Of a stretch of 47,465 nucleotides of DNA, positions 1,747 through 26,300 are shown piece by piece. A model generated the notes under the pieces. The model worked only from the letters and a program-made list of their open reading frames with translations. It ran no database searches and was not told where the DNA came from. The stretch is taken from positions 1-47,465 of IMG/VR virus record IMGVR_UViG_3300042540_000135, one strand, 5' to 3'. Positions within the stretch are counted from its first letter, which is position 1, and each line of letters opens with the position of its first letter. Origin of the DNA: a virus. The position numbers and the translations under genes are program-made.

Positions 1747-1761
1747 TTATATATATATATC

Positions 1762-7277: not shown

Positions 7278-9764
7278 ATGGCAACTTACCTACCCAATGT
7301 TACTGATGTAATACCCGAGCCGTCCTTATTTACACCTAACTTCACCTTCATTGATCAGATGTTGAGGCGGAGACAGGGGTTGTATGAGCAAGGGTTTGCA
7401 CAGGTTAACAGTGCCTATAATTTTGTTAACAGAAACGCTACTAATCCTTACAGTCTTAAGGTAAGGGACACGTTTTTGATGCAGGCAAAGGAAAATCTAA
7501 AGAATCTATCTAGTATGGATTTATCCCAGCAGCAGAATGTTAATTCTGCGAGAGGGGTATTTGAACCTTTTATTAAGAATAAGCCAGTTCTTATGGATAT
7601 GGCTACTACTGCACACTGGGATCAACAAGAATCTATTGCTGAAAGTTACAGACTAAAAGACGGTGGTAAAGAGTTCAGTGAGGATAATTTAAATTATATC
7701 CGTCAGCAACGTGCTGCTTTTGCTTCTGATGATATTAGTTCTGTAGGTTCTTATTATTCTAATCGCAGATCATACAATCCTTACTATGACTACTACAAAG
7801 AGGTTCAGGATGCTATGAAGAACTTCAAACCAAGCAGTTATAAGATTGATAAGATTCAAGGTTTATATAAGATAACCGAATCAGATAGTTCTTGGAAAGA
7901 AGCTGAACTTAAAGAGTACTTAAACGGTGTACTTTCTGATAAGGCTAAACAGCAAATGAAGATTGAAGCTAGCGTAAGACTCGGAAATAATCCAGAAGCT
8001 TTAACAAGTGCATACTTACAAAGTGCTGATAACATGGTTAAAATGAATCAGCATAACATTGGACTTATTGATAAGCAGCTTTCAGGTAATCTTAAAAAAG
8101 ATGAGGTTGCTCTTTTAAAAGAAAAGAAACAACAGCTAGAAGATGCTACTCGTGAGATAAATACCAATATAGAAACTATTAAGAAAGGTGATGTAAGTTT
8201 TATAAAAAATAACTCAGAACGTTTAGCTTATGGTATGTACTTTAATAGTAAACTATCAGGTTTTATTAAAGCATACAGTCATGATGAAATAGAAAGAAAG
8301 ATTGATGGAGATGATGTTGGTATAGCTTTAATGAGAGAAGATAGAGCTGATAGAAGAGCTGCCGCAAACAGAGCTCATCTTACAAAGCTTAAGATGTTGG
8401 AGCTTCAAGGGATGCCTGGAAACTTTCAGATACGTGAGCTTGCAGAAGGAGATGCTCAGGGAAAACAAGTAACAGTTTCTGGTTTACAAAAAGAACTAGA
8501 AGGTATTGATACTAATATAAATAACATCAGTAACTCTATGAAGCAACACGTTCTTATGAAGATAAAAGAACGTGATCCTAATAGTAAGCTTACAGTTAAT
8601 ACATTAACTGATGATGATATTAAAAAATGGATTAACACAGGTGGTATTGGTGGAAAAAGAATAGCTGATAATGATCCATACTTCACTTTTAATAATCAAC
8701 TAGCTCAACTCCGTGCATCTCAAGCTAGAATCAATGGTACTTTTGACAAGATTAATAATGGTGCTTTTGCTGGAATGAGCGATGCTGATAAGACCAAAGT
8801 AAATGCTGTTAATGAAAAACTTTTAAAAATAGGAGATGTTAAGTTAGATGATGGTACAGTAATTTCTGGATCAAAACTGGTAGGTGGTGTTAAAAATGGG
8901 ACTATTAAATTAAAGCTTAATTTACTTGGTAATAGTGGTAGCGTTACTATTGATGGTAAAACATATGAAATAATGGATATCCTTCAAGTCCGATCTGATA
9001 TCCCTATTAAAAAGAATTCAGAGTTATTCAGTGCTATTAAACAAATAAAAAGTATAACCGCAGAGGGTGGAGCTGCTTACGAAAGATATGAAAAAGGTAT
9101 TGACACATATTTGAAAAATAATTACGCTGACCTTAGTTTACTCACCAAGGTAGTTTCATTTGATGAAGGTAGTGCTCAGAATAAATCTTTAGAAGCTAGT
9201 GGTAGTGTATATGTACCAAATGACTTTACCGTAAGAGCTGCAGGTGTAGGTGCAACTGCACAGAATCAAGGAAACGCCTACTTCTATATTACTCCTAAAG
9301 GGGACTCTAAGGTATCGGCTGAAGAAATTCTTGCTAAAATGCAAGCATTAGGAGCTACCGGTGCAAGGGTTATTAAGACTGACAAAGGGGAAGCTGTTTT
9401 TGAAATACCTAATCTTAGAAATAACATTACTCAGCAGTTCAGAACATACACACCATTACAAGCCGATGTTATAGGAGAGGTGACTCAGTATTCAGGGGCT
9501 GGAGAGTATCATAGTACTCCTTTTACTGTGGAAAACAGTAATACTAAATACATAATTAAGAAGTATGGAGGGTTATATTATCTCCATATTAATGGTATTG
9601 GGGAGAGCTATCCTCAAGCCTTTACAGATCCCGGAGAAGCTGTTAATACAGCTAAACTTTTAAGTAGAACCGGCACCGATAAACTTTTTACTGAAGCTAC
9701 TGGTGGCGTACCTACTTTGAGTACTTCTGGAACAGAGTTGGACTTTCTTAACAATGAAGAGTAA
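7278..9764 (+). CDS. crAss-like virion-module protein, mostly helical (828 aa)
   Basis: The N-terminus has the pattern YLPNVTDVIPEPSLFTPNF, FIDQMLRRRQGLYEQGF, then LSSMDLSQQQNVNSA and FEPFIKNKPVLMDM, which I recognise from a family in the RNA-polymerase/virion region of crAss-like phages. The following 350 residues are charged and probably helical or coiled-coil (about residues 230-320 and 370-480). The last 300 residues look more beta-rich. No catalytic motif or membrane segment is visible. A 73-base gap precedes it, and the start codon is in the context taacctATG, the same as the next gene. It lies directly upstream of the giant RNAP gene, so a role as internal capsid protein or partner of the injected polymerase is reasonable but inferred. 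Confidence 0.65.
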   Translation: MATYLPNVTDVIPEPSLFTPNFTFIDQMLRRRQGLYEQGFAQVNSAYNFVNRNATNPYSLKVRDTFLMQAKENLKNLSSMDLSQQQNVNSARGVFEPFIKNKPVLMDMATTAHWDQQESIAESYRLKDGGKEFSEDNLNYIRQQRAAFASDDISSVGSYYSNRRSYNPYYDYYKEVQDAMKNFKPSSYKIDKIQGLYKITESDSSWKEAELKEYLNGVLSDKAKQQMKIEASVRLGNNPEALTSAYLQSADNMVKMNQHNIGLIDKQLSGNLKKDEVALLKEKKQQLEDATREINTNIETIKKGDVSFIKNNSERLAYGMYFNSKLSGFIKAYSHDEIERKIDGDDVGIALMREDRADRRAAANRAHLTKLKMLELQGMPGNFQIRELAEGDAQGKQVTVSGLQKELEGIDTNINNISNSMKQHVLMKIKERDPNSKLTVNTLTDDDIKKWINTGGIGGKRIADNDPYFTFNNQLAQLRASQARINGTFDKINNGAFAGMSDADKTKVNAVNEKLLKIGDVKLDDGTVISGSKLVGGVKNGTIKLKLNLLGNSGSVTIDGKTYEIMDILQVRSDIPIKKNSELFSAIKQIKSITAEGGAAYERYEKGIDTYLKNNYADLSLLTKVVSFDEGSAQNKSLEASGSVYVPNDFTVRAAGVGATAQNQGNAYFYITPKGDSKVSAEEILAKMQALGATGARVIKTDKGEAVFEIPNLRNNITQQFRTYTPLQADVIGEVTQYSGAGEYHSTPFTVENSNTKYIIKKYGGLYYLHINGIGESYPQAFTDPGEAVNTAKLLSRTGTDKLFTEATGGVPTLSTSGTELDFLNNEE

Positions 9765-9792: not shown

Positions 9793-12700
9793 ATGGCTGA
9801 AAACTATCTAGACAATTCTTTTGATACAGAATCTATAGAACCAGGTATTGAACAAGCTCAGTTAGAAACAACTGATCAGCAAATACCAGGTGGCCCTGGT
9901 ATACCTGTGAATGCTATAACACAGCCTTCTTTGTTCATGAACAAAAAAGGTAAACCTATAGACCAGCTTCCTCCTAGCCAGGCTGCTGCTGCACAAGCTT
10001 TTATAACTAATTCATACCCCAAACCTAAGACATTAGAAGAAGGTATGAGACTAGTTAATTCTTTACAACAATCTGATCCATTATTCGGCACAGGAGCTCG
10101 TTCATCAAATGCTTACTCTACAAAGATGGTTGAGAAGTATGATGATCAGGATTATGGTTTTATTCCCGGTATGGATCTGGATGACTTTTATGGTAAACGT
10201 GAATCATGGTATGATACATTTGGAAAACTTGCACTTAGACTTCCTGTATATACTGCAACTAAAGTACTTGAAGGTTTTGGTTTTTTAGGTGGACTATTAA
10301 GTCCTTGGAACTGGGGTACAGAAGAGGGTATAATTTCTAAAGCAGCTGATAATACTTTATATCAAGCTATGTCTCAGTTTGATGACTGGACTAAAAATGA
10401 GTGGATGCCTACCTTCCAGGAGGCTGCTGATAGAGAGAAAGGATTCTTTTCAAGATTAGCTACAGATGGTGACTTTTGGGCAGAAGATGTTGTTGATGGT
10501 GTGGCTTTTATGGCTTCAGCATTTGTACCCGGAGCTATATTAAGTAAGATTGGTGTAGGTGCTAAAGCAGCTGCTGGACTTTCTGCATTAAGAATAGGTG
10601 TTGCAGAAGCAGAAGTGGCTGTTCAAGGAGCGGGAGCAATGGCTAACTACTTTACCAAAGCTCAAAAGATTGGTCAAGGTATTGACAAGTTTAATATGTG
10701 GGCTTTAGCTACTACTACTGAATCTATGTTTGAAGCTAAAGAGGTACGTGATAATGTAAGAAATGGTTTACGTTTAGATGAGTTTGGTTTTACAAGACTT
10801 AAAGATGATGGTACTGCATATACAGATAGTGAGATAAACAAGATATCTGGTGAAGCTGCTAGAAACACCTTTGCAATGAATGCGTTGTTATTAGGTGGTA
10901 CTAATGCTTTTCAAATGAAATACTTTCTTAAACCTTTTGGACTAGCAGATGATGCTGGTAAGATTGGTTTACGTACAGGTGCTGGTCTAGCTGATGAAGC
11001 TGTTCTAAAACCTGCAGAAAGTGCTTTTAAATATTACGGTAAAATTGCTGGTGGTGGTATACTAAGAGAAGGTTTTATTGAAGAGAATATGCAGCTGGCT
11101 ATTCAGCGTGTTAATGAAAAGTATGGAATAAAAGGTTCAGTACTTTCTTTAGGTGATACTAACTTATATAAAGATTTATTAAATCAGTACGCTAATCAAA
11201 CAGTATCAGCAGTTTCTGGCAAGGATAAAGAAGCCGCTTTAAATATTGGTCTTGGCGGTTTGATCGGTGGAGGATCTAACGTTCTTTTAAGTATTGGTCA
11301 AAGAGCTTCTGATCTTAAAGCTTCACAAGCAGGTCTTGCTGACTTTTCAGATGCACAGAAAAACTGGTTAAAGTTTGGCAACATATATAAAACCCAAGAG
11401 GTTACTACTCAAGATGAGAATGGAAATCCTGTAGTAAAGAATCAGATAGTTTTTGATAAAGAAGGAAAGCCTGTTGTAGATGAGGTTAAACTAAATGCTG
11501 CCGTAACTGGTATTAGTAAAGCATCTGAAATGCTTACTGAGGCTGAGAACACTCGTAATAAGTTTCAAAGAAACTTCTTAAGAGTATCGGCTTTTTCAGA
11601 GTTTGTTCAGGCTCATATAAATGCTGGAGAAGAAGGTTCTTTAATGAAGAAGCTTGATTCTCTTAACGAGGCTTCAGCTGAAGATTTAGCAAAGCTTGGT
11701 TTTGCTGTTGGAGAAAACTTAAATGAGGATATACAAACCCATAAGAGTATAGCTTCAAGTATTATAAAGCAGAACAAGGTACTAAACGAAAGCATTCTTT
11801 TTGATAACTCTAAAGAAGATAAAGCACGTAAGTCTTATCTAACAAGTATTGCTGCTAAACAAGTTGTTTCTAAATATCTTGCTAATCTAATCCAAAAGGA
11901 TTTAGATGAGTCAAAAAATGAGTTGATTACTTCTGACATGACTTCTCTTTCTGATAGTCTTGTAGATCAGCTTAATGAGATGAAGTACAGGATAGAGTCT
12001 CAGAAACAGATTGTTGAGTACATAAAAGAAAACGGAAAAGAATCTGAGGTTCCTCTTAGTCTATATGAGGATGTACTGAAGGAACTAGAGAACAGTTTTA
12101 AAAAGATTGAGGAGAACAATCCTGAGTCTTTAAAGAACTTGCAAAAAGACAAAGACGGCTTCTATCTTTATGAAAAAGACGAGCGTACCATTGCTGGTGC
12201 AATGCTGGGTCTTAATACTATCTCTAGGCAAAAAGGTCAGGTTCTTAATGAGGTTAGAAATATAGGGGCAATGTGGGCTTACTATGCTGACAATAAAAAC
12301 GGTAAGAAGAACTATGTAGCTAACTTAAGATCAATTGAAGAAAACCTAAACGAGCAAGCTAAGAAAGCTGAAGAGGAAAAAGCTCGTAAAGAAAAAGAAG
12401 AGGCAGATAAAGCTGCTGGCATAACTCAGACCGAAGCCACACCAAGTACTGAGCAAGTGCCTCAACAAACTGAGGATCAAGAATCTGAAGAGCAAGAAGA
12501 TGATCCAGGATTACCCAGCTTCTTATTGGAAGCATTTGATATAATACAAAATAATGACCCAGAGTTTGAAGATGACTTTAACACTTGGTCAAAGAGTTTA
12601 GGTGCAAACTACTTTATACAGCAGTATAATAAGAAGTATAATAAATCTGAGCCTTTAAACGGTGCTCCAAAGACTGAGGCTCAGCCAACTTCTGCTCAAC

Positions 12701-15700
12701 AAAAGGACCTAGTTGATGGCTTATCTATAGCAGATACCACTTTGGCTACGCTTAGAAAAGCTATGGCTGCGGTTCGTGAAGTCTATAGTAAGATTGCAGA
12801 TAACGAGGATCTAGTTAAAAAGCTAATAGATAAGATCAATCAGGTAAAAGACGCCTTTGCAAAATCTACTCTTCTTAGCGTTATAACCGGTACTAGTTCT
12901 GAACAGCCTTCTGAACAGGCATCTACTTACATACCTATTAATGATGTTAATCCTTCTGTACTAACAGTTAAGGCTAATAATCATATTGGCTATGACAAAG
13001 TCAGCATGAACCAGGATGAGGTTGAAACTGGGTTTGTGCTTGTTGGTAATAAAGCATTAATAGAATCAATGGGTTCTAATACGGCTACTATAAACGATAA
13101 TGTAAAAGTAGTTGCTACAAGAAAGTTTGTTAATGAAAACCAGGAGAAGCTAAAACAGTTAGGTATACCTAACAGAACTATAATTACTTACGAGACGCCT
13201 GATGAGATTAATAAAAAACTCAAATTGGGGGTTTCAGTAATTGCTGCTGCAGCTCGATACAATGGTTTTGGAACACAGATATTCTTAAAAAATAATGAGG
13301 CAGCTGGTAATGTCTACATAGCGGGTATTGAGAACTATGCTATAGTTCATCCGGATAACACTACAGAACCTATTACTTTTTCTGAGGAGCAAAGAGAGTT
13401 TGTAAAAGCTAACATGTTGGTTAATGGTCAGCAAATGACTGATCAACAGTATGATCGTTTTCAAAAGCTATATACCAAGATTCAAGACTTCAATGAAGAG
13501 GTTGAGCTAGTGCTTGGAGAAAACGAGCAGATAGATATTACTCCAATATTTAATAAATATTTTACAGTAACTAAGTCTGGTAAGGATGCCGTAAAAGGAC
13601 AGAGCTTTGAGTCTCTTGTTCAAAACAATCCTGATAAGCTTTTTAGAATAACTTATCAGACAGAGTCTGGTGAGATATTGGAAAAAGACGTACCGCTGGT
13701 TGCTCGCAGTTGGGGTAGCGGTTGGATACTTGACTTTCCTTTGAACAGTGGGGAAACCCTTATGTATACAGATGACTCTGGAGAAGTGGTTCCGGTAACG
13801 GATACTAAAGAGTATGCTGCTACAGTACATGGTATTACTCCTGAGTTTACAGATAAGTTCGGTGCTAAATATGCCTGGGTAGCTAAAGAACCCACAGATC
13901 CTAAAGGATTTAAGCCATATGCTTTGAAGAGAGATACTGGTACTAGTCCTGTTGAGCACTTCAAAAAGTTTGCAAAAGACTTTGCTGAGTTAAAAGCTGT
14001 TCTTACTGAAGGAGAAAAAACAAAAGAATACAAGTATAAAGGGCAGACATTTAGTACTGTAAATCAGTTGATGTCTTTCTTTAACTCAAAGGTGTATGGT
14101 TTTTACCAGTCACAAAACTGGTTTGTGAATCTATCGTATAACCCAAAAACAAAGAAGTTTGCTTTTGAACTTAGACCTTCTGATAAAGAAGTTCGTAACT
14201 CTTTAACTGGTCCACAGAAGCAGGCACTCAATCTTTACTTTTCAGATGCTTCTATAACTAGCGTTACTGACAATACTCAGGATGCTGATGTATTGGAGGC
14301 CTATAAAAAATGGATGAACAGCTTGATGTCAGACTATAAAAAACTGACAGATAAACTGGAAAACAGTGATGATAATCTATTAAAACAGTTCAGATCTGAG
14401 TTGAAAACAAATACTCTTTTTGAGTATGAGAATGAAAACGATGTTAAAGAGTACATGCTTAAGCTTGTTGACAAAGATGGAAACACTGCTAAAGCACCTG
14501 TACAGTTTCTTAAATACAATGCTAGAGAAACGAAGAAGAAAGTTACTGTTGCTCTTAATGATGAGCCTGTACTTCCTGTTAAAAGAAAAGCAACTACTAG
14601 GCCAAAAAAATCTAAGGCTGAAGGTTTTAGTGTTCTTGGTACCCTTGGAGATAATGATGTTGCTGGTCAACAATTAATTCCAACACAAGAAACCGCTACT
14701 CCAACACAGGAAAAGAATAAACCTGTTTCAGCAGAGCCGGCTAAAAAGACTGGACGTAAGATTGTTAAGAAGCTAGATGACGAAGCTCCATTTATGCTTC
14801 GTTCTGAAGAAGAATACAAGAGCTATACAGATAAATCTTTTAATGAAGAAGTTCAGTGGTTAAGCCAAGCTCTAAGGAACTCAGGTATTTCATTGCGTGA
14901 TCTAGGTACAATTATAGATAATCTTTCTGCAGGAAAGCAGGTTCTTGGTTATTACAAGAATCGTGCAGTTTATGTAAATAAAAACTTATCTTCTGAGGGT
15001 ACTATTTATCACGAAGCTTTCCACGGTTTATTCCGTGACATTTTTACAAGTGACCAAAGAGCATTTTACTTAAGTAAAGCAAAAGCTCGTATGGGAACTG
15101 TTACACAACAGCAGATCTCTGACTTTCGTAATGAACGCAGATACTTTAATAAAACTGACCGTGAGATTATAGATCTTATAGCTGAAGAGTATTTGGCAGA
15201 TGGATTTAGAAAATATAAGCTTGACAAGAAAGAACCAATTGATTCTTGGTTTAAACGTTTTGTAAAACTTATAGAACGTATCATTAACTTCTTTAATAGC
15301 AATCAGCGTGCAATTGATAGACTGTATAAAGACTTTGATGGTGGAGTATATGCTGAGCAAGTAGTCAATCCTGAAAACAGTATATCTAACGAAGGAGTCT
15401 TTGCTTTAGCTTACGGGCGTCCTAAACTAGTAGAGACAATAGATGAGGAAACAAATGAGCCTGCTTTTGGAGTTATAAGCAAAGTACCTCTGAATCTAGA
15501 AGTACAGAATGAGCTTGTATCCAAGCTGACATACCGGGTGGCTAATATGACCACCGGTAACTTTGCTAGCAAGTTTGTTCAAGCTGTTGAAGAACTTAAA
15601 GCAGAATATGATCTTGAAGCTTTGATAGCAACAGGTAATCCTGAACTAGCAGATGCTATTCGTAATAAGTATCAGAATAAGTTTGCTGAAGCATCTTTTG

Positions 15701-18700
15701 TGTTAGGCGTTCCTGTCAAGTATGTTCTTGATGATCAACTACTTAATGACGAGGAGGCTAATGAGTTACTAACTGAACCTGGTGATAACACCGAGGCTTT
15801 AGAAACCATCAAGGGTCTTGTAAAAGAAAAGATAGACACTCTTGGTTTGGAAAAAACTTTAGCTGATAGTAATCTACAACTACCTGAAGATGAAGAAGAT
15901 GCAGAACAAACTAATAAAGGTGGTGAGTTTGATAAGGTTCATATCAATCCTTTAGAAGGACTCAGCCGTGAGTTTAGAAACCTGTTTGGAATCATTCCTT
16001 ATCAGTATACCGATCCTGATCTGGGAGTTACTGTAAGCAGAACTGCGGATGGCAGCATGCTTTTTAATGCTATGATTAAAGTGGCATCAGACAATACTAT
16101 AGATCAAATCCTACCTTCTTTGGCTAAGGCTGTAGAAATGATGGAGGAGGACAATGATCCAAAGTATGCCCCTTTAAAAGCTTTTGCTGACTTTATCCAG
16201 CGTCAGTTTGGAATAGCGGATCTTTCTGACTCAACTAGTAAACCGACAAGAAATCTATATCTCTATAAGCAGTTTATTGATACCTTCTTTGTAACAGAAC
16301 TTCCTAGTTATGTTATTAAGAGTACTACCACAAAGACTTCTACTAAGTCAGAGGTATTTGATGCTTCTATTAATCAAGACGTTAATCAGAAAAGAGAAGC
16401 AATTAAGTTCTACTATGACCAGGAGTATCGTAAGCTAAAGACTCCTGAACAGATTGAGGCGTTTAATAAGAAGTTTAAAGACCTGCAGAATTATATTAAT
16501 CAGAACCTGTTCACTCTATTCTTGGCCGGTAATGGTATCAACCAAAGAAAAGCGTTGAACCAAGTGGTAGACAAAGTTAAACAACTTATGGACGATGTAA
16601 ACATTGTTCTACCAAAGAGTCTGATAAGACAATCTTTACTAGCTATATACAACATTGAAGAGAAGAAACCTTTTAATGTTAGGTCTACTAGAAACATTCA
16701 AGACATTGAAGTGAATCAGACTTTGATGAAAGAAGGAGCCTATTTACAATCAGACTTCTTTAAAAACCTAGCTCAGATTGCAGCACCTAACTATCCTAAT
16801 CTTTTTGCTGATAAAGATGCTAACGTAAACCTTGGTAAAGATTACACTAAGATTGATGCTATTAATAAGATACTTAAGAAGGCTGCCAAGTTTATTATAA
16901 AGTATGATATTAACTCTGCGATGTCTGTTTATCAGAATGCAGAGTATGAGAACATATATAGATATACTAGACACACCCCTCCGTCATTACTAGTACAAAA
17001 AATTAGAGAAGAGGGTATAAGCTCTCTTCAAGATATGTATCCAATGCTTCGTGATTGGTATACAGATAATCCATTATTCAACGGATCAGAGGAAAACAAT
17101 CTTTTCTTAAACAACCTTTATCTATCAAGCTTTGGAGGGTTCCGTCAGGAGATAGGCGATACTAATCGTAAAGGTGTAACATTTGGTAGTATTGATCCTA
17201 AGACGTTCCTTCTTAGTGGTATTGTGCATTTTGCAAACCGTGAAAGGATATCTGAAGGTAAAGTATCTATCAACACATTCAGACGTAGTCGTACTCAGGA
17301 AGAAGCTACAACAACTAACTTTTTATTAACGGCAAAGTATAAGAGATATGCCGATGGTCTTGAAGCAAACTCAGAGTACATAAAAGATATTATGTCTTTG
17401 CTGCGTCAAGAATATAATCGTATTCAGCGTGAATGGGCAAACCGTAATGATGAGAATGCTGTACGTTATAACGGGTACAACAATCTTAATGGTGATGTTA
17501 ACAAGCTAAGAGCTTACCAGTTTAAACACTTTGAACATTTCTTTGATCAGCAGGAAACTACTGATGAGAATTCTGTATTAAGACAAGAGATGAAAGATGC
17601 TCTTGTTAATGCTGCAAAGTCTGGTGTTACTTTTGAACAGGCTTTAAAGTCTGATGTGCTTATGCAGCTTCCCAATCAGTTAAGTGATTATACTCAGGAA
17701 ACCTTTGAAGCTCTTAAGAAGAACTTAGAGAAGTATGAGCTTTTAAAGTACATGAAGAAAGACGGAGAAACTATTGCTACATCTGATCTACTACCTACTA
17801 AAATAAACCAGGACTTTAAAGACGGTACGCTTGAGGAAAATGGTTATGATACTCTTGATGAAATGCTTCTGGATTATCATCTAAACGTTGAGATGAATAA
17901 ACGTACGGTTAACCAGATTTTTGATGGTGACCTAGCTACGGGTATTAAGACAGCACAGGAATTTTACAAGCGTAACAAGAGTGGCGTTATATCAGGTAAC
18001 TCTGCTAAGGTTGGATATTTCCGTACTGCTGTAGTAGAAAACCTTCAGTCTTTTATACCAACATCAACTAATCCTCTTACTGGCAAGACAGACTTTGATC
18101 TTAATCAGTTGGCCCAGGATGAAGAAACACCTAATTCTAAAGGTGTAGATATTGCAGATGGACAGTCTTATCATATTATGAATCACAGGATAAGACTTAT
18201 GGACAACTGGGGCAGATTAAGTCCTGCCGTTAAGTCTATTCTTCACAAGGCTAAGTATAAAACCTTAGACAAAGAAGACATTGATTTTCTTAATGAGAAT
18301 AAAGTTGTACTTAACACTCTTAAGACAGCAACTGGTGGTATATTAGAATACTATAAGTTATCAGAGCATCTTCTTATTCGTCCAGATGTGTCCAGACTTG
18401 TAATACCTCAGGGTATGAATCAGGAAGAAGCTGAGCAAAAACTTGATGAGCTTTATTCTGAGATAGAAATGTTAGAAGACCAGATTATTGAAGATCCTTT
18501 CTCTGCAGAAGCTGCAGATTTAGAGTCTAAAGTAGAAGAATTGTATTCAGAAGTTCATGGCTTCTGGTCTCCAAAACGTGGGCGTGAAAAGCTACACTAT
18601 CTTCTTAACTCAATGGAAGCTAGTGGTATAGATCATTTATTTGATACAAATGCTTCAAAGAAAACCACAGTAGTACCAATAAAGCTTAATACAGATACCG

Positions 18701-21700
18701 TTACAAACTTAAAACCATCTAAGAGTTCTAGCTCTTCATTGTTTAAGTTTATGCAGGTAGAGACTTCTGGTATACATGATAAGATTACATTGCCATCCCA
18801 GGCACGTCAGCTATTGACTACATATATTAACAAGCTTGCAAATGATCAAGTATATCGTAACAAGTCTCTTAAAGATCTTGCCAAGGAATACTCTGATACT
18901 CTTGGTGATATATCAAAGAGCTCAATGAATAACCTTAACAAGGCTATTCTAGATGAAAAAGGAGAGCTTAACATTAGTCAGTTGTTTACTACTATGTACA
19001 ACGGACTTAAGAAACAGGGCATTGACAGCAATACTCTTAAGTACTTTGAGGTAAGAGACGGAAAACCTGTTCATAATCCAAACATACCTGCAATCAAGAA
19101 GATCTTTACATACTATTACTTTAGTATGTTTAACAACGCTGTATTCTCACAGAAGGTCAGCGGTAGAAGTGATATTCTTGTTTCAGAGTTTGGTTATGAG
19201 GTTTTATACGACACTCAGGATAATAATCGTATCATTACTCAAGAAGAACAAGAACAAAACCCTGAACTGTATAATGATACTGACAGGTTCAAAACCCGTC
19301 ATCTAGGTATATCAGTAGAAGAAGTTAATGGTAAAAAGGTGTATACCGTAGAGGTAATGATACCTAAAAAATTATTTGATAACGAGAGTGAGCGTGAGCT
19401 TTTCTTAACCAAGTTGTCAACCTTCTTCAGTACTCGTATTCCTACAGAAGATAAACGTTCCATGGTTGTTGCAAAAGCAGTAGACTATATAGATCCTGCT
19501 TATCAAAACTCCATCGTAGTTCCTCAATTGGTTCACATTCTGGCTGGTTCTGACCTTGACGTGGATAAGCTCTACTCTCATACATTTGATTACTATATAG
19601 ATTATAATGAAGTAGCTCACGTTTATGGAGACTACTCTAAGTATACAACCCCGTCACAAGGTCAGTTTGCAGAGTATATTCAGTATATGTCAAGCCATCC
19701 TTATTTTAAGGAGCTAGTTGACATTGAGATGGAAAAGATGGTTGTAAAACCTGTACTAACTTCTGATTTTAAAAAGGTTACTAAGGAGTTAGGTATCAGT
19801 ACTTTAGAGTTGACTCCAGAGGAAATTAAGCTGAAGAGAGATGATATTATCAGCAACTTAGATCTTCTTGAGAACGTAAGAAAGGATCTGCAGAATCAAC
19901 ATGATATTGCTTTTAACGAGTATGTATCAAGCAGTAAGAAAGATAGATCCTCTAAGCGTGATACGTTTATAAAGAAAAGAGCTGAGTATCTTATTGCCCG
20001 TGACGCTAAGGATGCAGCTAAAGAAGAACTTAGAGAAACTAAGAAAGAACTTAGAAAGGTAAACAATACGTTAAAGATAGCTGCTCTGGTAAATATCCTT
20101 AAGTCAAAGGGCATGCCTGTAACCCAGGCTGAGTTTAGCAAGTACTTAAAGACAAATCCTAGTCCTGTTATACCTGTTTTAAATAACACAAGCTTACAAC
20201 AGAAGATAGATATTCTATCAAACGAGAAGGTATTTAAGGATTTCTATATAAATGAACGTTCAACTGTTGAGCCTTTTAGAAATATTGCTGCAAGTATTGG
20301 AGCATCTGTTGATAGTGTTATTACTCAGAACTCTATCTTCTCAGTTATGGGTGACGTAGTTGCTAATGATCTTAACGCAACTAACAAAGACGGTATTGGT
20401 ATAGCAGCAAGCTTTAATAAGTTTATAGCTTTTGCTGAGAAAAATGACTTAGTTCTAAGTCAGCCTTTGATTAGAGTGTTAGATGAGAACAACAAAAAGA
20501 TTGATTACGTTGACTTTACTAATACATCAGCTATTAGACGTACTGGTGAAACACTTGGTATGTTTGCTGATGCAGCTAAAGAACCTATTCCGTCTGTACT
20601 AAATCTTAATCCTGATACTGCAGGTATCTCAAATGTTATTGTTGGTATGTCTGGTAATCTACAGCTTGGTTTGTTGATTAACAAAATACCTTTTATAGAA
20701 GAGATTATTCAAGACTACAGAACAACAAAGTCTGCAGCACAAGATACCAGCATTAATCTTGAAGGAAGTATTTCTTCAAGAATGAAAAACTATTTTAAAC
20801 AAACTGTTGGATCACTTCAACAGAGTGGAAGACTTGGTGAACTACTTGTTGCAAAAGAAAAGAATGGTAAGGTTATAGGATATGGTGAGGTTAGACCAAT
20901 GTATATTAAAACAATTGAACCTAATCCTGAAGTTGCCAAAATGGAACCTGAGAATATAAGGCTTGGTGATCTTGGCATTGAGTTACTCTATGAAGATAAT
21001 TCTGTAGTTGCAGAAGATGTAGCTAAAGCATATTTGGCTAGTACTTATGCCAGCATTATTCAATTAAACAGTGATATCTTGTTATTGGGTAAGGTGTTGA
21101 ATCTTATTAAACAGCAGGAACCTGATTTTAATAAGCTAGATGAAATTCTTTCTGCTTACAACTATTTCTTGTCTGGTACTTCTTTGTTTGGAGAGTCTAT
21201 TGTAAAAGCTTTGACATCTTCAAAAGAATACTCAAGTTTGATACAAGCAGCTTCAATGATGAGCTCTTATTCAAGACAGCTACTTATTGAAAGAACACCG
21301 TTATTTAAATCTGTTGTTGATATATTAAATCTTGGTTTGAACAACACCTTTGGTGATGAGAAAGCAAAACAAGATATCATTGATCAGGTTGGTAAGTTTA
21401 TTATCATCAACAAGATGAAGACTGAAATGAAGTCTCAGATTGATGATTTATCAACTAAAGACGATGCTGCTAGTAAGGCTAAGCTTGAGATGCTTGAAGA
21501 TTCTTACAAGTATTTCTCTGCTGATTTCTGGTTAGATAATAATACATTACTTGACGACCTAGATTATCTAAACTCAGTAAATCCCGGTAATCCTTTCGTT
21601 GACTTTTTAAAGGTAAATGTACGTCAGGATATAAATTATCTAGAGGCTACTAGTCGTATGCGTCTTGATAAAGATCTTACAGAGAATATTATCAATGGAT

Positions 21701-23391
21701 ATGAGTCCTTACAGAAGAGCAAAGATCCTAGAACCTTAAAGCTTTCTCGCCAACTTTTCTATTATCTTCTTACTAAAGACGGTTTAGGATATGGTGCATT
21801 TACATTCTTGAAGTATATCAATCCTGATATTCCTCAGATGTCAGAGGTATCTAGAGTTTTAGATCAGTTTCAGAAATTACTCTTTGATCAGCAAGCTTTT
21901 ATTTTTGAGAAAGAACAGGAGATCCGTAGTATAATGAAGTCTGGAGTAAAAGAAAACGAAAAAGAAGCTTATGTTAAAAAGATTGTTGATGAGATATTGA
22001 ATAACTATAACAAGCTGTTTGATAACTTCTTTAATAATAAAACAAAAGCAGGTAAGATTGACTGGATTAATGGTATTGTTAATAAGATATTCAGCTACGC
22101 TGGTAACCAAAAATACATCCGTACAAGCTATGGTATTAACATAGAGTCGGCCGATAATAAGAATTTAATGCAAGATATTCTTAATGCCGGTGTATTTAGC
22201 CACATGACTAATGTAAAGAAGCTATCTGGTAAGAAGTTTCAGTACACTAATGGTTCGATAGATAAGTTTACTGTTGATTTGAATCCTATTAAGAAAGCTG
22301 TACCTGGTCAAGATCCTTACAAGATAGATGAGCTTCTATATAGAGAGTTTGCTATTACAAGAGATCTGGCTACCATGGAGATTAATGGAGCTAAGTTCAA
22401 AGTACTGCTTTCTGATAATGATGGTAATCTCTTTAGATTAGTATCTGTTGATGATGTTCCTGTTTCAGATAGGATAGCACAACATTCAGTAGACAAGCTT
22501 ATGGGGCCAGTAAATACTGGACTTAAAGCTGAGTATGTAAGAATGGATGTAGAAGGTACAAAGAACCTTTTAAGCTTTGGATTTAATCAGCAAGATGGTA
22601 AGAAATTGTGGGAGGCAGTAAGACCTAAATCTGAGCAAGAAGAGGAAGTTAGATACTTTTTAAATGGTCAAGTTGTTAGTCCTTTGTCTGATAACATGAC
22701 TAAACAAGAAGCTCCTAGTAAGTACATGGGTGATATTGTTGGTCCTGTAGATCTTGGAATTGAAGGTATAGTTTCTGATGATGATATAGAAGGCATGATT
22801 GCCAGAGGAGAACTTAAGGGTGCTAAAGTTGGAAGCAAGGCTACAGCTCAGGCTCCGGATGAGATTGGTTTTAAAAAGATTGGCCAGCCAGCCACTGAAA
22901 CTACTGATACTAAGAAGGGTACAGAAATTACATATACTCCTAAGGGCAAGCAAGTACAGACTTATACTGTGGCAGGTAATCAGATCTTTAATAAAGACGG
23001 TCAAGAAGTATTTAAAGAAGACTCAGTAGTCCGCAATAAGATTTATGCTAACCTGGCTGTAAAGACTGGCAATGCTGTAATAGTTAACCATAAGGGTGCA
23101 AGCTATATAGTAAATAAGAAGAACCAAGTAATGTCTGTTAAGACTGGAAAGATCATGCAGTGGGATATAAATAATGGTGACATGAAAGCTATACTAGCTG
23201 AAGCCGCTAAGAAGTTTACTCCTGTAGGAGCAGATATAACAATCAAAGAAATAGACGAGCTCTACAATTCAAAGTCTACAAAAAATGTAACTTTGGAACA
23301 GTACCGTGAAGAAGCTAAAGAGTACATAAATACTATGACTCAAGCCGGTATGTCTAAATCCGCTATCCTTGAACAACTAAAATGTTTATAA
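9793..23391 (+). CDS. Giant virion RNA polymerase/metalloprotease protein (4,532 aa)
   Basis: This single frame spans 13.6 kb. Residues about 140-500 contain hydrophobic and glycine-rich stretches (for example 233-255, VVDGVAFMASAFVPGAIL) that could contact membrane. Residues about 850-910 are highly charged and repetitive, likely a linker. A zincin site HEAFH lies at residues 1740-1744 with a likely third ligand in DLIAEEYLADGF about 50 residues later. The motif GSDLDVDK, with Asp at 3254, 3256 and 3258, matches the DxDxD metal-binding centre of crAss-like/YonO-like single-chain RNA polymerases (GSDFDIDK-type in relatives). From established work on crAss-like phages (phage phi14:2), such polymerases are packaged and injected to transcribe early genes. 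Here the protease and polymerase are in one chain, so cleavage into parts is plausible but not shown. The first double-psi barrel was not located. The start is at taacctATG. Confidence 0.85.
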   Translation: MAENYLDNSFDTESIEPGIEQAQLETTDQQIPGGPGIPVNAITQPSLFMNKKGKPIDQLPPSQAAAAQAFITNSYPKPKTLEEGMRLVNSLQQSDPLFGTGARSSNAYSTKMVEKYDDQDYGFIPGMDLDDFYGKRESWYDTFGKLALRLPVYTATKVLEGFGFLGGLLSPWNWGTEEGIISKAADNTLYQAMSQFDDWTKNEWMPTFQEAADREKGFFSRLATDGDFWAEDVVDGVAFMASAFVPGAILSKIGVGAKAAAGLSALRIGVAEAEVAVQGAGAMANYFTKAQKIGQGIDKFNMWALATTTESMFEAKEVRDNVRNGLRLDEFGFTRLKDDGTAYTDSEINKISGEAARNTFAMNALLLGGTNAFQMKYFLKPFGLADDAGKIGLRTGAGLADEAVLKPAESAFKYYGKIAGGGILREGFIEENMQLAIQRVNEKYGIKGSVLSLGDTNLYKDLLNQYANQTVSAVSGKDKEAALNIGLGGLIGGGSNVLLSIGQRASDLKASQAGLADFSDAQKNWLKFGNIYKTQEVTTQDENGNPVVKNQIVFDKEGKPVVDEVKLNAAVTGISKASEMLTEAENTRNKFQRNFLRVSAFSEFVQAHINAGEEGSLMKKLDSLNEASAEDLAKLGFAVGENLNEDIQTHKSIASSIIKQNKVLNESILFDNSKEDKARKSYLTSIAAKQVVSKYLANLIQKDLDESKNELITSDMTSLSDSLVDQLNEMKYRIESQKQIVEYIKENGKESEVPLSLYEDVLKELENSFKKIEENNPESLKNLQKDKDGFYLYEKDERTIAGAMLGLNTISRQKGQVLNEVRNIGAMWAYYADNKNGKKNYVANLRSIEENLNEQAKKAEEEKARKEKEEADKAAGITQTEATPSTEQVPQQTEDQESEEQEDDPGLPSFLLEAFDIIQNNDPEFEDDFNTWSKSLGANYFIQQYNKKYNKSEPLNGAPKTEAQPTSAQQKDLVDGLSIADTTLATLRKAMAAVREVYSKIADNEDLVKKLIDKINQVKDAFAKSTLLSVITGTSSEQPSEQASTYIPINDVNPSVLTVKANNHIGYDKVSMNQDEVETGFVLVGNKALIESMGSNTATINDNVKVVATRKFVNENQEKLKQLGIPNRTIITYETPDEINKKLKLGVSVIAAAARYNGFGTQIFLKNNEAAGNVYIAGIENYAIVHPDNTTEPITFSEEQREFVKANMLVNGQQMTDQQYDRFQKLYTKIQDFNEEVELVLGENEQIDITPIFNKYFTVTKSGKDAVKGQSFESLVQNNPDKLFRITYQTESGEILEKDVPLVARSWGSGWILDFPLNSGETLMYTDDSGEVVPVTDTKEYAATVHGITPEFTDKFGAKYAWVAKEPTDPKGFKPYALKRDTGTSPVEHFKKFAKDFAELKAVLTEGEKTKEYKYKGQTFSTVNQLMSFFNSKVYGFYQSQNWFVNLSYNPKTKKFAFELRPSDKEVRNSLTGPQKQALNLYFSDASITSVTDNTQDADVLEAYKKWMNSLMSDYKKLTDKLENSDDNLLKQFRSELKTNTLFEYENENDVKEYMLKLVDKDGNTAKAPVQFLKYNARETKKKVTVALNDEPVLPVKRKATTRPKKSKAEGFSVLGTLGDNDVAGQQLIPTQETATPTQEKNKPVSAEPAKKTGRKIVKKLDDEAPFMLRSEEEYKSYTDKSFNEEVQWLSQALRNSGISLRDLGTIIDNLSAGKQVLGYYKNRAVYVNKNLSSEGTIYHEAFHGLFRDIFTSDQRAFYLSKAKARMGTVTQQQISDFRNERRYFNKTDREIIDLIAEEYLADGFRKYKLDKKEPIDSWFKRFVKLIERIINFFNSNQRAIDRLYKDFDGGVYAEQVVNPENSISNEGVFALAYGRPKLVETIDEETNEPAFGVISKVPLNLEVQNELVSKLTYRVANMTTGNFASKFVQAVEELKAEYDLEALIATGNPELADAIRNKYQNKFAEASFVLGVPVKYVLDDQLLNDEEANELLTEPGDNTEALETIKGLVKEKIDTLGLEKTLADSNLQLPEDEEDAEQTNKGGEFDKVHINPLEGLSREFRNLFGIIPYQYTDPDLGVTVSRTADGSMLFNAMIKVASDNTIDQILPSLAKAVEMMEEDNDPKYAPLKAFADFIQRQFGIADLSDSTSKPTRNLYLYKQFIDTFFVTELPSYVIKSTTTKTSTKSEVFDASINQDVNQKREAIKFYYDQEYRKLKTPEQIEAFNKKFKDLQNYINQNLFTLFLAGNGINQRKALNQVVDKVKQLMDDVNIVLPKSLIRQSLLAIYNIEEKKPFNVRSTRNIQDIEVNQTLMKEGAYLQSDFFKNLAQIAAPNYPNLFADKDANVNLGKDYTKIDAINKILKKAAKFIIKYDINSAMSVYQNAEYENIYRYTRHTPPSLLVQKIREEGISSLQDMYPMLRDWYTDNPLFNGSEENNLFLNNLYLSSFGGFRQEIGDTNRKGVTFGSIDPKTFLLSGIVHFANRERISEGKVSINTFRRSRTQEEATTTNFLLTAKYKRYADGLEANSEYIKDIMSLLRQEYNRIQREWANRNDENAVRYNGYNNLNGDVNKLRAYQFKHFEHFFDQQETTDENSVLRQEMKDALVNAAKSGVTFEQALKSDVLMQLPNQLSDYTQETFEALKKNLEKYELLKYMKKDGETIATSDLLPTKINQDFKDGTLEENGYDTLDEMLLDYHLNVEMNKRTVNQIFDGDLATGIKTAQEFYKRNKSGVISGNSAKVGYFRTAVVENLQSFIPTSTNPLTGKTDFDLNQLAQDEETPNSKGVDIADGQSYHIMNHRIRLMDNWGRLSPAVKSILHKAKYKTLDKEDIDFLNENKVVLNTLKTATGGILEYYKLSEHLLIRPDVSRLVIPQGMNQEEAEQKLDELYSEIEMLEDQIIEDPFSAEAADLESKVEELYSEVHGFWSPKRGREKLHYLLNSMEASGIDHLFDTNASKKTTVVPIKLNTDTVTNLKPSKSSSSSLFKFMQVETSGIHDKITLPSQARQLLTTYINKLANDQVYRNKSLKDLAKEYSDTLGDISKSSMNNLNKAILDEKGELNISQLFTTMYNGLKKQGIDSNTLKYFEVRDGKPVHNPNIPAIKKIFTYYYFSMFNNAVFSQKVSGRSDILVSEFGYEVLYDTQDNNRIITQEEQEQNPELYNDTDRFKTRHLGISVEEVNGKKVYTVEVMIPKKLFDNESERELFLTKLSTFFSTRIPTEDKRSMVVAKAVDYIDPAYQNSIVVPQLVHILAGSDLDVDKLYSHTFDYYIDYNEVAHVYGDYSKYTTPSQGQFAEYIQYMSSHPYFKELVDIEMEKMVVKPVLTSDFKKVTKELGISTLELTPEEIKLKRDDIISNLDLLENVRKDLQNQHDIAFNEYVSSSKKDRSSKRDTFIKKRAEYLIARDAKDAAKEELRETKKELRKVNNTLKIAALVNILKSKGMPVTQAEFSKYLKTNPSPVIPVLNNTSLQQKIDILSNEKVFKDFYINERSTVEPFRNIAASIGASVDSVITQNSIFSVMGDVVANDLNATNKDGIGIAASFNKFIAFAEKNDLVLSQPLIRVLDENNKKIDYVDFTNTSAIRRTGETLGMFADAAKEPIPSVLNLNPDTAGISNVIVGMSGNLQLGLLINKIPFIEEIIQDYRTTKSAAQDTSINLEGSISSRMKNYFKQTVGSLQQSGRLGELLVAKEKNGKVIGYGEVRPMYIKTIEPNPEVAKMEPENIRLGDLGIELLYEDNSVVAEDVAKAYLASTYASIIQLNSDILLLGKVLNLIKQQEPDFNKLDEILSAYNYFLSGTSLFGESIVKALTSSKEYSSLIQAASMMSSYSRQLLIERTPLFKSVVDILNLGLNNTFGDEKAKQDIIDQVGKFIIINKMKTEMKSQIDDLSTKDDAASKAKLEMLEDSYKYFSADFWLDNNTLLDDLDYLNSVNPGNPFVDFLKVNVRQDINYLEATSRMRLDKDLTENIINGYESLQKSKDPRTLKLSRQLFYYLLTKDGLGYGAFTFLKYINPDIPQMSEVSRVLDQFQKLLFDQQAFIFEKEQEIRSIMKSGVKENEKEAYVKKIVDEILNNYNKLFDNFFNNKTKAGKIDWINGIVNKIFSYAGNQKYIRTSYGINIESADNKNLMQDILNAGVFSHMTNVKKLSGKKFQYTNGSIDKFTVDLNPIKKAVPGQDPYKIDELLYREFAITRDLATMEINGAKFKVLLSDNDGNLFRLVSVDDVPVSDRIAQHSVDKLMGPVNTGLKAEYVRMDVEGTKNLLSFGFNQQDGKKLWEAVRPKSEQEEEVRYFLNGQVVSPLSDNMTKQEAPSKYMGDIVGPVDLGIEGIVSDDDIEGMIARGELKGAKVGSKATAQAPDEIGFKKIGQPATETTDTKKGTEITYTPKGKQVQTYTVAGNQIFNKDGQEVFKEDSVVRNKIYANLAVKTGNAVIVNHKGASYIVNKKNQVMSVKTGKIMQWDINNGDMKAILAEAAKKFTPVGADITIKEIDELYNSKSTKNVTLEQYREEAKEYINTMTQAGMSKSAILEQLKCL

Positions 23392-23394
23392 TCC

Positions 23395-26300
23395 ATGCCC
23401 TGTCCTAATAAGAACCTTGAATCTTGGAAGAGTTTAGTTTCAGCTTTAGGTAGTGAAGCTAAAGCTTTGGCTGCTTATACTTTAAATAACTATGATATAC
23501 CTAGTGTTCAGGAAGCAGAGCTTTTGCTTATTATGCAAGAGGCTAAAACTTCTGGTAAGGTAAAAGATAAAGCTAAATCAGAGCTTAAAGAACTGAAACT
23601 AGAAAGGGTAAATGATCAGATTACTACACTTGATCGGATCATACAGTCTTCCCCTAAAGATGGTAGGCAAGAAACCCTAAAGAAGATAAAGCAGAACTTA
23701 GAAGAATATCGTAAAGTTGTAGAACAAGAAGATACTACAGTTTCTGTAACTAATCTTTTTGCCGGGGGTGAATTAGAAGACCAGGAAAAGTATAAGGACT
23801 ATGCTGAGTTTGGAACCTTTCAGCACTACATACTTGAGTCTTTGCAGAAGGAAACAATTGGTACGGATAAAAGTCTTACAAGTGTATTTAGTAAAGCCAA
23901 ACTAAGAGAGCTTCTTAAAAGCTATGATAAGAAGTTTACTATAAACGGCTTAATAGAGAACGGGACCATTCTTAATGAGGACGAGCTCTACAATATGTCT
24001 AATGAGATTCTTGGTATACTTCAAACCTACACCTCTATGGGGTACACCATTCTTCCAGAGATAAGTGTGCTTGCGAAAGACAGGTTTGACAGAAACATTG
24101 TAGGTCGTCTAGACATGGTGGCAATAGATAAAAATGGTAAAGCTGTTGTAATTGATCTTAAGAGTAAAAAGCTAAAGAGTACTTCAACAGTTGATAGCCT
24201 TTCTTATTACTGGCCTGTAAACAGCAGTGCTCAAACAGATGCAGAGTTTCGTGGTGGTACAAGAAATGCTTACGAAAACTGGGATATCCAGCTCGGTATC
24301 TATGCAAGAATGCTTCAGCAGCTTGGTATAGATACAGATGAAAAGCGTATTCTTGGTTTGTACTATTATGGTACGTATGATACTGCCGATGGTAAGCAGT
24401 TCAACGAAAAGGGGGAAGATACTTTTAACTATACTTTCTATAAGGTAAAGAGCTATTTAAGTTCTGAGTTTGATAAAGCAGGTGAGTCTGATTATCTACG
24501 TTATAAAAATCATATGCGAAAGATAGCTAAGGTTTTACCCTTAGCTGAAGAGGATGTCACTCCTGCACGTGAAAAGAATAGAGATGATATTGTTTTTAAT
24601 ATGTCTCCTGAACAGGCTGACAAGCTTGTTGCTAAGTTAACTGAGATTACTGAAAGAGAGCTTATAAATGCAAGAGCTAAGCTAAAAGACGCAAAGAAAA
24701 AAGACTCAGGTAAAAATATAATTGATTACTACGAAGATCGTATTCAATCCTTAAATCAGATAAAAGAGGCATTAAAACAAGATGCCTGGGATTCAGCTTA
24801 TAAAGTTGGATTTGTTATTCAAGTACTGGCTAATGATACAGCCGCTCTACGTCAAACTGTTGAGAGCATGGATTCTATTGTTAATGACAGCGGTTTAGAG
24901 CAAAGATCTAAAGACTTAGATAAGTTTACTCGTTTAGCAGGTGGATATAATATTGTTATTAGTCAAGTAAGAAGGCTTCTTACTGAAGCAAAAGTTGGTG
25001 AAGATAGCAAGGCTGTACAGGTTTTGAATCAGATTGAAAACAATATAAGATCAATTAGGGCTGAATATAACAGACTTGGATTGTTTTATCTTACAAGCAT
25101 GCTAAAAGATAGTTTATCTGAAAATCAAGTATTTAGAATAAACGATCAAAGGAAGCAATTACTTGAAGCTCGTATAAAAAGACTAGAAGAAAAGAGATCA
25201 AAACTTTTATCTGAAGGTCAATCTGGTTCAGGCTTTTGGTACAGAATAAGTCAGAAAGTAAGTAATGTTGGAAGATCTGCTTTAAAATCTGATTTGCTTA
25301 ATCCAGAAAACGAACTAGAAAATATTGAGAAACAGCTTATTAAGTTACAGGTAGAAATGCAAGGTATAAACCTTGACGATGAGTCTGTTAACAAGTATAT
25401 CATGGCTGTTTTAGATCCCGCCTCTCCTGTGTATATGGGCCAGGGCACTACTGTTATAACAGGCGGTGTTGCTGCTACAGCAAGCGGTGACTGGGTAACT
25501 AGTGCCTATGCTACACAGTTAAAAGTAGCTATATCTAATGGTATACAGGACTATGTAAACTTCATTGAAAGAGAAAAGATACAGGATGAATATGATAGGT
25601 ATTCTGCCGGAAGTAGAAACATAGCTGAGCTTAATGAAGCAATCAGTGAGATCAGATCTGTAAATACTTATGATGACAACGGTAATCTTACAAAAATTCA
25701 AAGACGAGCTTTTGTAAATCCTATATCTCAAGAGTATTATGACACTATAGATGATTTTAGAAATAAGGAGCGGTTACTTAGTAAAAAGATTCAGGATGAA
25801 ACAGATCCTGAGGTCCGTAAAGAGCTAAAGAAACAGCTTAGTGAACAGCAGAATCAGTTTCTAGAGTGGAGGTTGGAGAACTCACAGATGGAGTATGTCA
25901 ATGAGTTCTATGAGATTGATAAACTTTTACCTGCGGAATATAGACAAGAAAGAGATGAACTTTTTGCTGAGAAGCGTTTGTTAGAAGCATCTGCTGGTTT
26001 TAATAATGCAGAGGAGCTAGATGAAGAAACTATAGATAGAATCGCTGAGATAGAAGTAGAGCTTAACAAGCTGCGTAAGAAGTATGCTGATATGAAAGAA
26101 GGCGGTTACGCTCGTTACTTAGCTCTACAGGAAAAGTACTATGAGTATGAAACTAACTTTAATTATTACGAGCGTCTTTATAATCAGAAAAGAATACAAT
26201 TAACTGACGCAAACGGTAATGTAGATATAGAAGCTCTTGCTAAATGGAAAGAGCAGAATACTATAAAGCGTCCTAAGGAAGAATGGTATCAGCTTGTTGG

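Follow-up and report, generated by a model that had tools for sequence, protein, structure and literature searches.

A predicted crAss-like virion RNA polymerase chain whose separate cargo pieces are probably disulfide-joined tail to head and ejected as one thread

crAss-like phages are among the most abundant human gut viruses. An open reading frame of 4,532 aa lies at 9793–23391 (+ strand) of the window, which is the entire 47,465-base linear virus record IMGVR_UViG_3300042540_000135, a fragment from an uncultured phage. It bears on two questions: by what means narrow-tailed phages inject such large polymerase machinery in a set order, and what holds its split subunits together. The frame has zero internal stops (table 11). 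The initial annotation had placed a zincin-type HEAFH motif (residues 1740–1744; 15010–15024) and a polymerase-type DLDVD motif (residues 3254–3258; 19552–19566) within this single uninterrupted chain, and both the frame and the occurrence of each motif once in it are confirmed.

The giant chain and its modules

Comparison with known polymerases identifies the DLDVD region. A tblastn search against 33 crAss records matched residues 3001–3700 to the RNAP catalytic subunits of crAss002, p-crAssphage, jaberico, and others, and a profile (A4) built from the window and its IMG/VR relatives, with phi14:2 left out, aligned to the phi14:2 RNAP (6vr4_A) over 1,200 residues with E = 9.7e-137. The AlphaFold (AF2) model of the polymerase region (residues 2499–3698; 17287–20886) has a pLDDT of 82 and a pTM of 0.80; Foldseek returned 6vr4_A as the sole significant PDB match (E = 3.5e-22, TM 0.60), whereas other two-barrel RNAPs gave weak local matches over 56–78 columns that were not significant (E > 0.3). 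The double-psi-barrel fold expected around the DxDxD site is thus present in the model, and the earlier assignment to the injected crAss-like type of polymerase holds. When aligned with crAss-like RNAPs, DLDVD falls on their catalytic site, where the G-x-DxDxD and RIP motifs are invariant; this alignment, together with the invariant columns at HEAFH described below, indicates that neither motif is due to chance. Scanning the giant chain against PHROGs and Pfam was uninformative. The homology and the model identify the 4,532-residue protein as the predicted virion RNA polymerase of a crAss-like phage. Homologues in phi14:2 and crAss001 are packaged in virions, and the phi14:2 enzyme transcribes early genes (PMC10172136, PMC10136315).

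Upstream of the polymerase lies an N-terminal module (residues 77–640; 10021–11712) homologous to Phi14:2_gp078 (26.9% identity, E = 2e-29). It includes a moderately hydrophobic stretch (residues 233–251; 10489–10545; Kyte-Doolittle mean 1.70), for which a role in delivery across the membrane had been suggested; the segment exists, and phi14:2 gp78 has a comparable one (172–190), but it is missing from most relatives checked, and such poor conservation lends the suggested role little weight. A second chain of 1,849 aa (23395–28944, + strand) matches crAss001 gp49, Phi14:2_gp076, and the C-terminus of p-crAssphage-type gp44, and constitutes the C-module; it contains a PD-(D/E)XK nuclease-like domain (23785–24381; Pfam PF12705, E = 7e-7) and a conserved part (27415–28734) on which calls of the module as fused or separate are based. 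These homologies give the gene order N-module, zincin, RNAP, and then a separate C-module. The end of the N-module, as defined by sister phages in which it is split off, was not placeable on the window chain, in which the linker is too divergent.

An 828-aa protein with no cysteine (7278–9764, + strand) is encoded directly upstream of the giant chain, and its place there suggests that it may be part of the ejected cargo, similar to crAss001 gp46. Two ORFs further upstream of the cargo genes (253–4053) carry DUF5872, DUF5754, and DUF3597 domains. The right half of the window holds replication genes reading leftward, encoding a DnaB-like helicase, a Sak4-like protein, a primase, a family B DNA polymerase, and a PD-(D/E)XK nuclease. 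Terminase and capsid genes (TerL, portal, major capsid) were not seen in the 47-kb window; the proposed placement of the phage in Crassvirales rests on homology of the RNAP and its modules.

The HEAFH motif lies in a zincin-like region (residues 1640–1930; 14710–15582) that has homologues in the C-terminus of crAss001 gp47 and, at a corresponding position, in the giant chains of the Suoliviridae (residues ~1612–1820 of cr50_1 and cr109_1). Among 37 relatives the sole fully invariant columns are H, E, and H of the motif and a Glu pair ~55 residues downstream (residues 1798–1799; 15184–15189), the probable third zinc ligand; in pattern, these columns are the ligands expected of an HExxH...E peptidase. 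The model of the domain (pLDDT 71, pTM 0.62) has the order helix, strands, HExxH helix, Glu helix, and the same order is given for the minimal zincin of polyvalent proteins (PMC5512222). The triad and the secondary-structure order support the assignment as zincin-like, but the zincin fold itself is unproven, since a Foldseek search with the model gave no match at E < 0.001. Pfam provided no credible family match for the domain, and an FtsH match in a search of PDB sequences with the zincin profile was rejected as chance similarity around HEAxH.

Some lineages have altered sites. In L067, L074, and L093 the motif reads WEAFR and the downstream Glu is replaced by Thr, such that the ligands are lost together; other loci have HEVFE, HEAFE, or HEIFE. 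The occurrence of altered sites in chains that are still fused implies that the domain is retained without catalysis in some lineages. The pseudo-zincin of L067, L074, and L093 sits in cysteine-free chains fused to the C-module. These three loci pointed to a link between full fusion and loss of zincin activity, which was not borne out: active sites are present in the fully fused L187 and L203, and dead sites in chains with a separate C-module. Another HExxH motif (HELxHxxT type), ~800–1,230 residues after DxDxD, is frequent in lineages without the window-type zincin (RNAP-ORF residues 2190 in L050, 2268 in L063, 2120 in L069, 4182 in L083, 2309 in L087, and 4081 in L092; in L012, at residue 245 of Phi14:2_gp076). 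It is placed near the RNAP/C-module joint, where it may represent a zincin family distinct from that of the window.

The fusion of zincin and RNAP in one chain is not new and is already present in public genomes: cr50_1 has HEAFH at 1665 and DFDID at 3154 in 4,774 aa, and cr109_1 has HEAWH at 1718 and DFDID at 3222 in 4,328 aa when TAG is decoded as an amino acid. The fusion was found in most loci with a zincin in a first IMG/VR sample, and in 59 of 147 further loci, the zincin being located elsewhere in 7 and not detected in 81. Across the virus group the order N-module, zincin, RNAP, C-module is constant and is split into one to four genes at varying places; the gene boundary lies ~200 aa past HExxH in Intestiviridae and crAss001, and just ahead of HExxH in L055 and L059.

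Cysteines at the ends of cargo pieces

The two cargo chains of the window have a single cysteine each. Cys4531 (TGT, 23383–23385) is the second residue from the C-terminus of the 4,532-residue chain, and Cys3 (TGT, 23401–23403) lies at the start of the 1,849-residue chain; both are at the inner ends, which face each other, and the outer ends are without cysteine. Cysteine density is 1.0 per 1,000 aa in the cargo versus 6.2 in the other ORFs, and non-cargo genes of the window and of public crAss loci have ~8 per 1,000.

We compared this arrangement across related loci, scoring a C-terminal cysteine when it fell in the last 12 residues, and an N-terminal cysteine when, within the first 50 residues of the stop-to-stop frame, a Met was followed by Cys within seven residues. 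Modules were called fused or separate by profile hits, with loci lacking a hit uncounted; the N-module profiles detected their module in only part of the loci. In the first set a C-terminal cysteine is present in 57 of 58 RNAP ORFs with a separate C-module versus 0 of 15 with a fused one (p = 1e-14), and an N-terminal cysteine in 21 of 21 with a separate N-module versus 0 of 11 (p = 8e-9). The separate modules mirror this pattern: C-modules carry cysteine at the inner N-end (58/58) and never at the outer C-end (0/44), and N-modules at the inner C-end (21/21) and never at the outer N-end (0/15). The lone exception, L090, has an RNAP frame broken at DxDxD, and the fragment that follows ends in Cys.

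An out-of-sample set of 147 loci, obtained from three new scans, sharing <90% identity among themselves and with the first set, and scored with the same fixed criteria, gave the same result. RNAP pieces carried the C-terminal cysteine in 112/112 cases with a separate C-module versus 0/16 fused (p = 1e-20), and the N-terminal cysteine in 43/44 with a separate N-module versus 0/36 fused (p = 5e-22); inner ends were positive in 112 of 113 C-modules and 41 of 44 N-modules, and outer ends in 0 of 103 and 0 of 36, respectively. Three exceptions have their sole cysteine 18–32 residues from the end, ahead of a basic tail, and the fourth, L141, is apparently frame-broken. When the sets are pooled (~225 loci), RNAP pieces have a terminal cysteine at 233 of 235 ends that face a separate module, and at none of 78 fused ends. 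For comparison, 65 annotated non-cargo genes include one with an N-terminal and seven with a C-terminal cysteine.

The rule extends to other divisions of the cargo. In the four-piece blocks L020, L021, and L022, the pieces between RNAP and C-module carry exactly two cysteines, one per end; fully fused chains (4,630–5,714 aa) have none in six of seven new cases, as is also observed for the fully fused L057, L062, L067, and L074. Internal cysteines, several per chain, are retained mainly in Intestiviridae and in L046, L078, and L081. On the RNAP tree the N-module changed state at least 19 times and the C-module at least 8 times, counts that depend on the fast tree used for the pooled set. Independent pairs of loci agree with the rule in 11 cases for the N-module, with none against and one tie (p = 0.001), and in six of six for the C-module (p = 0.03). 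The rule also holds for pieces encoded on the opposite strand (crAss001, L251, L297, L319) and is thus not an effect of translational coupling; together with the use of both TGT and TGC at the ends, this excludes translational coupling or recoding as the source of the cysteine pairs.

An N-terminal tag, M-x-x-C-P-N-x-N...W, occurs in 57 C-modules and 15 RNAP pieces (window, 23395; L055, L059, L065, L082), and may serve in docking, its position shifting with that of the cut. The cysteine rule across crAss-like cargo is apparently undescribed; within a partial coverage of the literature, nothing relevant was found on terminal cysteines or disulfides in crAss cargo.

Proposed disulfide joints and alternative explanations

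What is conserved in these phages is the continuity of the cargo and not its gene structure. On balance we favor a reading of the facing cysteines, drawn from their distribution, as partners in a disulfide that would stand in for the missing peptide bond; in the window this would be a single joint, from Cys4531 to Cys3 of the following chain. We infer further that the joined pieces leave the capsid through the narrow tail as one ordered and largely unfolded thread, and that the reducing host cytoplasm would then cleave the disulfides, releasing the pieces such that the polymerase could fold and transcribe early genes. Taken as a whole, the proposal of a crAss-like virion RNAP chain with separate cargo pieces disulfide-joined tail to head and ejected as one thread appears probable to us. 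We also lean toward its extension to crAss-like phages in general, in which terminal-cysteine disulfides would join separate injected giants into a redox-cleavable thread of ~5,000–7,000 residues with a fixed exit order, the cysteine pair substituting for a peptide bond and making gene fusion and splitting interchangeable. If true, this would be a new way to build delivery cargo, with release built in through the reducing cytoplasm, and would explain the free exchange of gene fusions and splits in these phages; the terminal-cysteine rule would offer a sequence-based way to tell which proteins are strung together, and where.

The crAss001 virion contains gp47, gp49, and gp50; the cargo, mostly unresolved in the reconstruction, must cross constrictions under 50 angstrom, partly unfolded, and other inter-subunit disulfides are found in tail, hub, and vertex proteins only (PMC10172136). 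Reducing gels show bands at 150, 270, and >300 kDa, among those yielding virion proteins including gp47, gp49, and gp50 (PMC6235969). These bands fit uncut gp49, gp47, and gp50, whose masses are 154.5, 262.5, and 276.9 kDa, respectively, as expected if reduction separates the pieces without cutting. Without guidance by docking, a middle piece with a cysteine at both ends could cyclize or join to an incorrect partner. The cytoplasm of anaerobic Bacteroides is reducing during assembly, so oxidation would need to be late or post-lysis. Thioredoxin-like proteins, of interest if disulfides matter for the cargo, are annotated in the crAss-like genomes L005 and L007.

Among the other explanations, the one that survives best concerns the zincin, which may act on host proteins after entry, serving anti-defense or takeover; such a role has been suggested for polyvalent proteins and for domains of the ArdC type. 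No domain is found more often than the zincin in injected polyvalent proteins (PMC5512222), and the loss of the domain in some lineages, with none detected in 81/147 loci, suits a host-dependent accessory; however, the domain matches no Pfam family. We regard this as a tentative possibility that is compatible with the disulfide thread and does not exclude it. Most likely, the zincin would serve in host-directed or occasional processing, an activity since lost from some lineages, and not in obligatory self-cutting.

It is also conceivable, if improbable, that the facing cysteines form no disulfide between neighbors and serve as ligands for zinc or a different cofactor, or as a docking site between two copies of the complex. 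Each joint has two thiols, and two copies would create a four-cysteine site; the cysteine pattern alone does not separate this arrangement from a disulfide. However, we noticed neither a histidine/cysteine cluster nor a conserved metal motif near the ends, each side contributes one cysteine, and fused relatives need no such site.

Somewhat less probable still is that the locus is an ordinary crAss-like virion RNAP in the fused Suoliviridae layout, with a cysteine pattern that reflects mere avoidance of cysteine in ejected proteins and has no mechanical meaning. The same fusion in cr50_1, cr109_1, and the 59 further loci, and the cysteine depletion of the N4 vRNAP and ejection proteins, would be expected on this account, but avoidance alone predicts cysteine-free ends, whereas in both data sets, and across state changes that arose independently several times, cysteine is found at partner-facing ends and is missing from outer ones.

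Least probable is that the zincin is a processing protease which, in the virion or in the host, severs itself from the RNAP of the fused chain and so yields pieces that other crAss-like phages encode separately. The gene boundaries on either side of HExxH would suit such processing, and for N4-like RNAP-zincin proteins it was put forward by Iyer et al. (2017; PMC5512222). However, dead sites (WEAFR, HEVFE, HEAFE) occur in fused chains of several lineages, true splits carry cysteine on both sides where the fused joint has none, which suggests that continuity is kept, and the crAss001 bands fit uncut proteins, so the initial proposal of a protease cutting its own chain is not borne out.

Comparison with known systems

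The closest layouts are those of the Suoliviridae cr50_1 and cr109_1, in which HEAFH or HEAWH and DFDID lie in one chain at positions matching those of the window, and a separate chain of ~1,385 aa follows, with cysteines at the facing ends as in the window. They differ from it in sequence (~20% identity), in a few extra internal cysteines, and, in cr109_1, in the use of TAG as a residue. The phi14:2 virion RNAP (gp66 of the published work, Phi14:2_gp077; PDB 6VR4) shares the two-barrel fold and DxDxD with the window chain, is packaged in virions, and is adjoined by homologues of the N-module and C-module. In contrast to the window, phi14:2 uses three genes and lacks the window-type zincin, having another HExxH in gp076. 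It follows the same terminal rule, with cysteine in gp078 only at the last residue, Cys3 and Cys2179 in gp077, and Cys3 in gp076. The crAss001 proteins have cysteines at -3 in gp47, which is encoded on the other strand, at 5, 1334, and -9 in gp50, and at 5 in gp49.

p-crAssphage shares the module order, its gp45 being recorded as an RNAP associated protein fused to a zincin protease and its gp44 as an RNAP fused to an unknown subunit. Unlike the window, it is cut after the zincin and has the C-module fused to the RNAP; cysteines are present at the C-end of gp45 and the N-end of gp44, and the C-end of gp44 is without one because the C-module is fused there.

The virion RNA polymerase of phage N4 likewise combines RNAP and zincin in one giant chain that is injected (PMC5512222), although its polymerase is of the T7-like single-subunit type, unrelated to the two-barrel crAss RNAP. 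In L094 (14524–27524) the N4 vRNAP and the ejection proteins gp51 and gp52 are all without cysteine, and cysteine avoidance may, from such compositions, be a general mark of ejected proteins. The N4 polymerase has no cysteine in 3,500 aa, and it lacks terminal cysteines because it is one chain.
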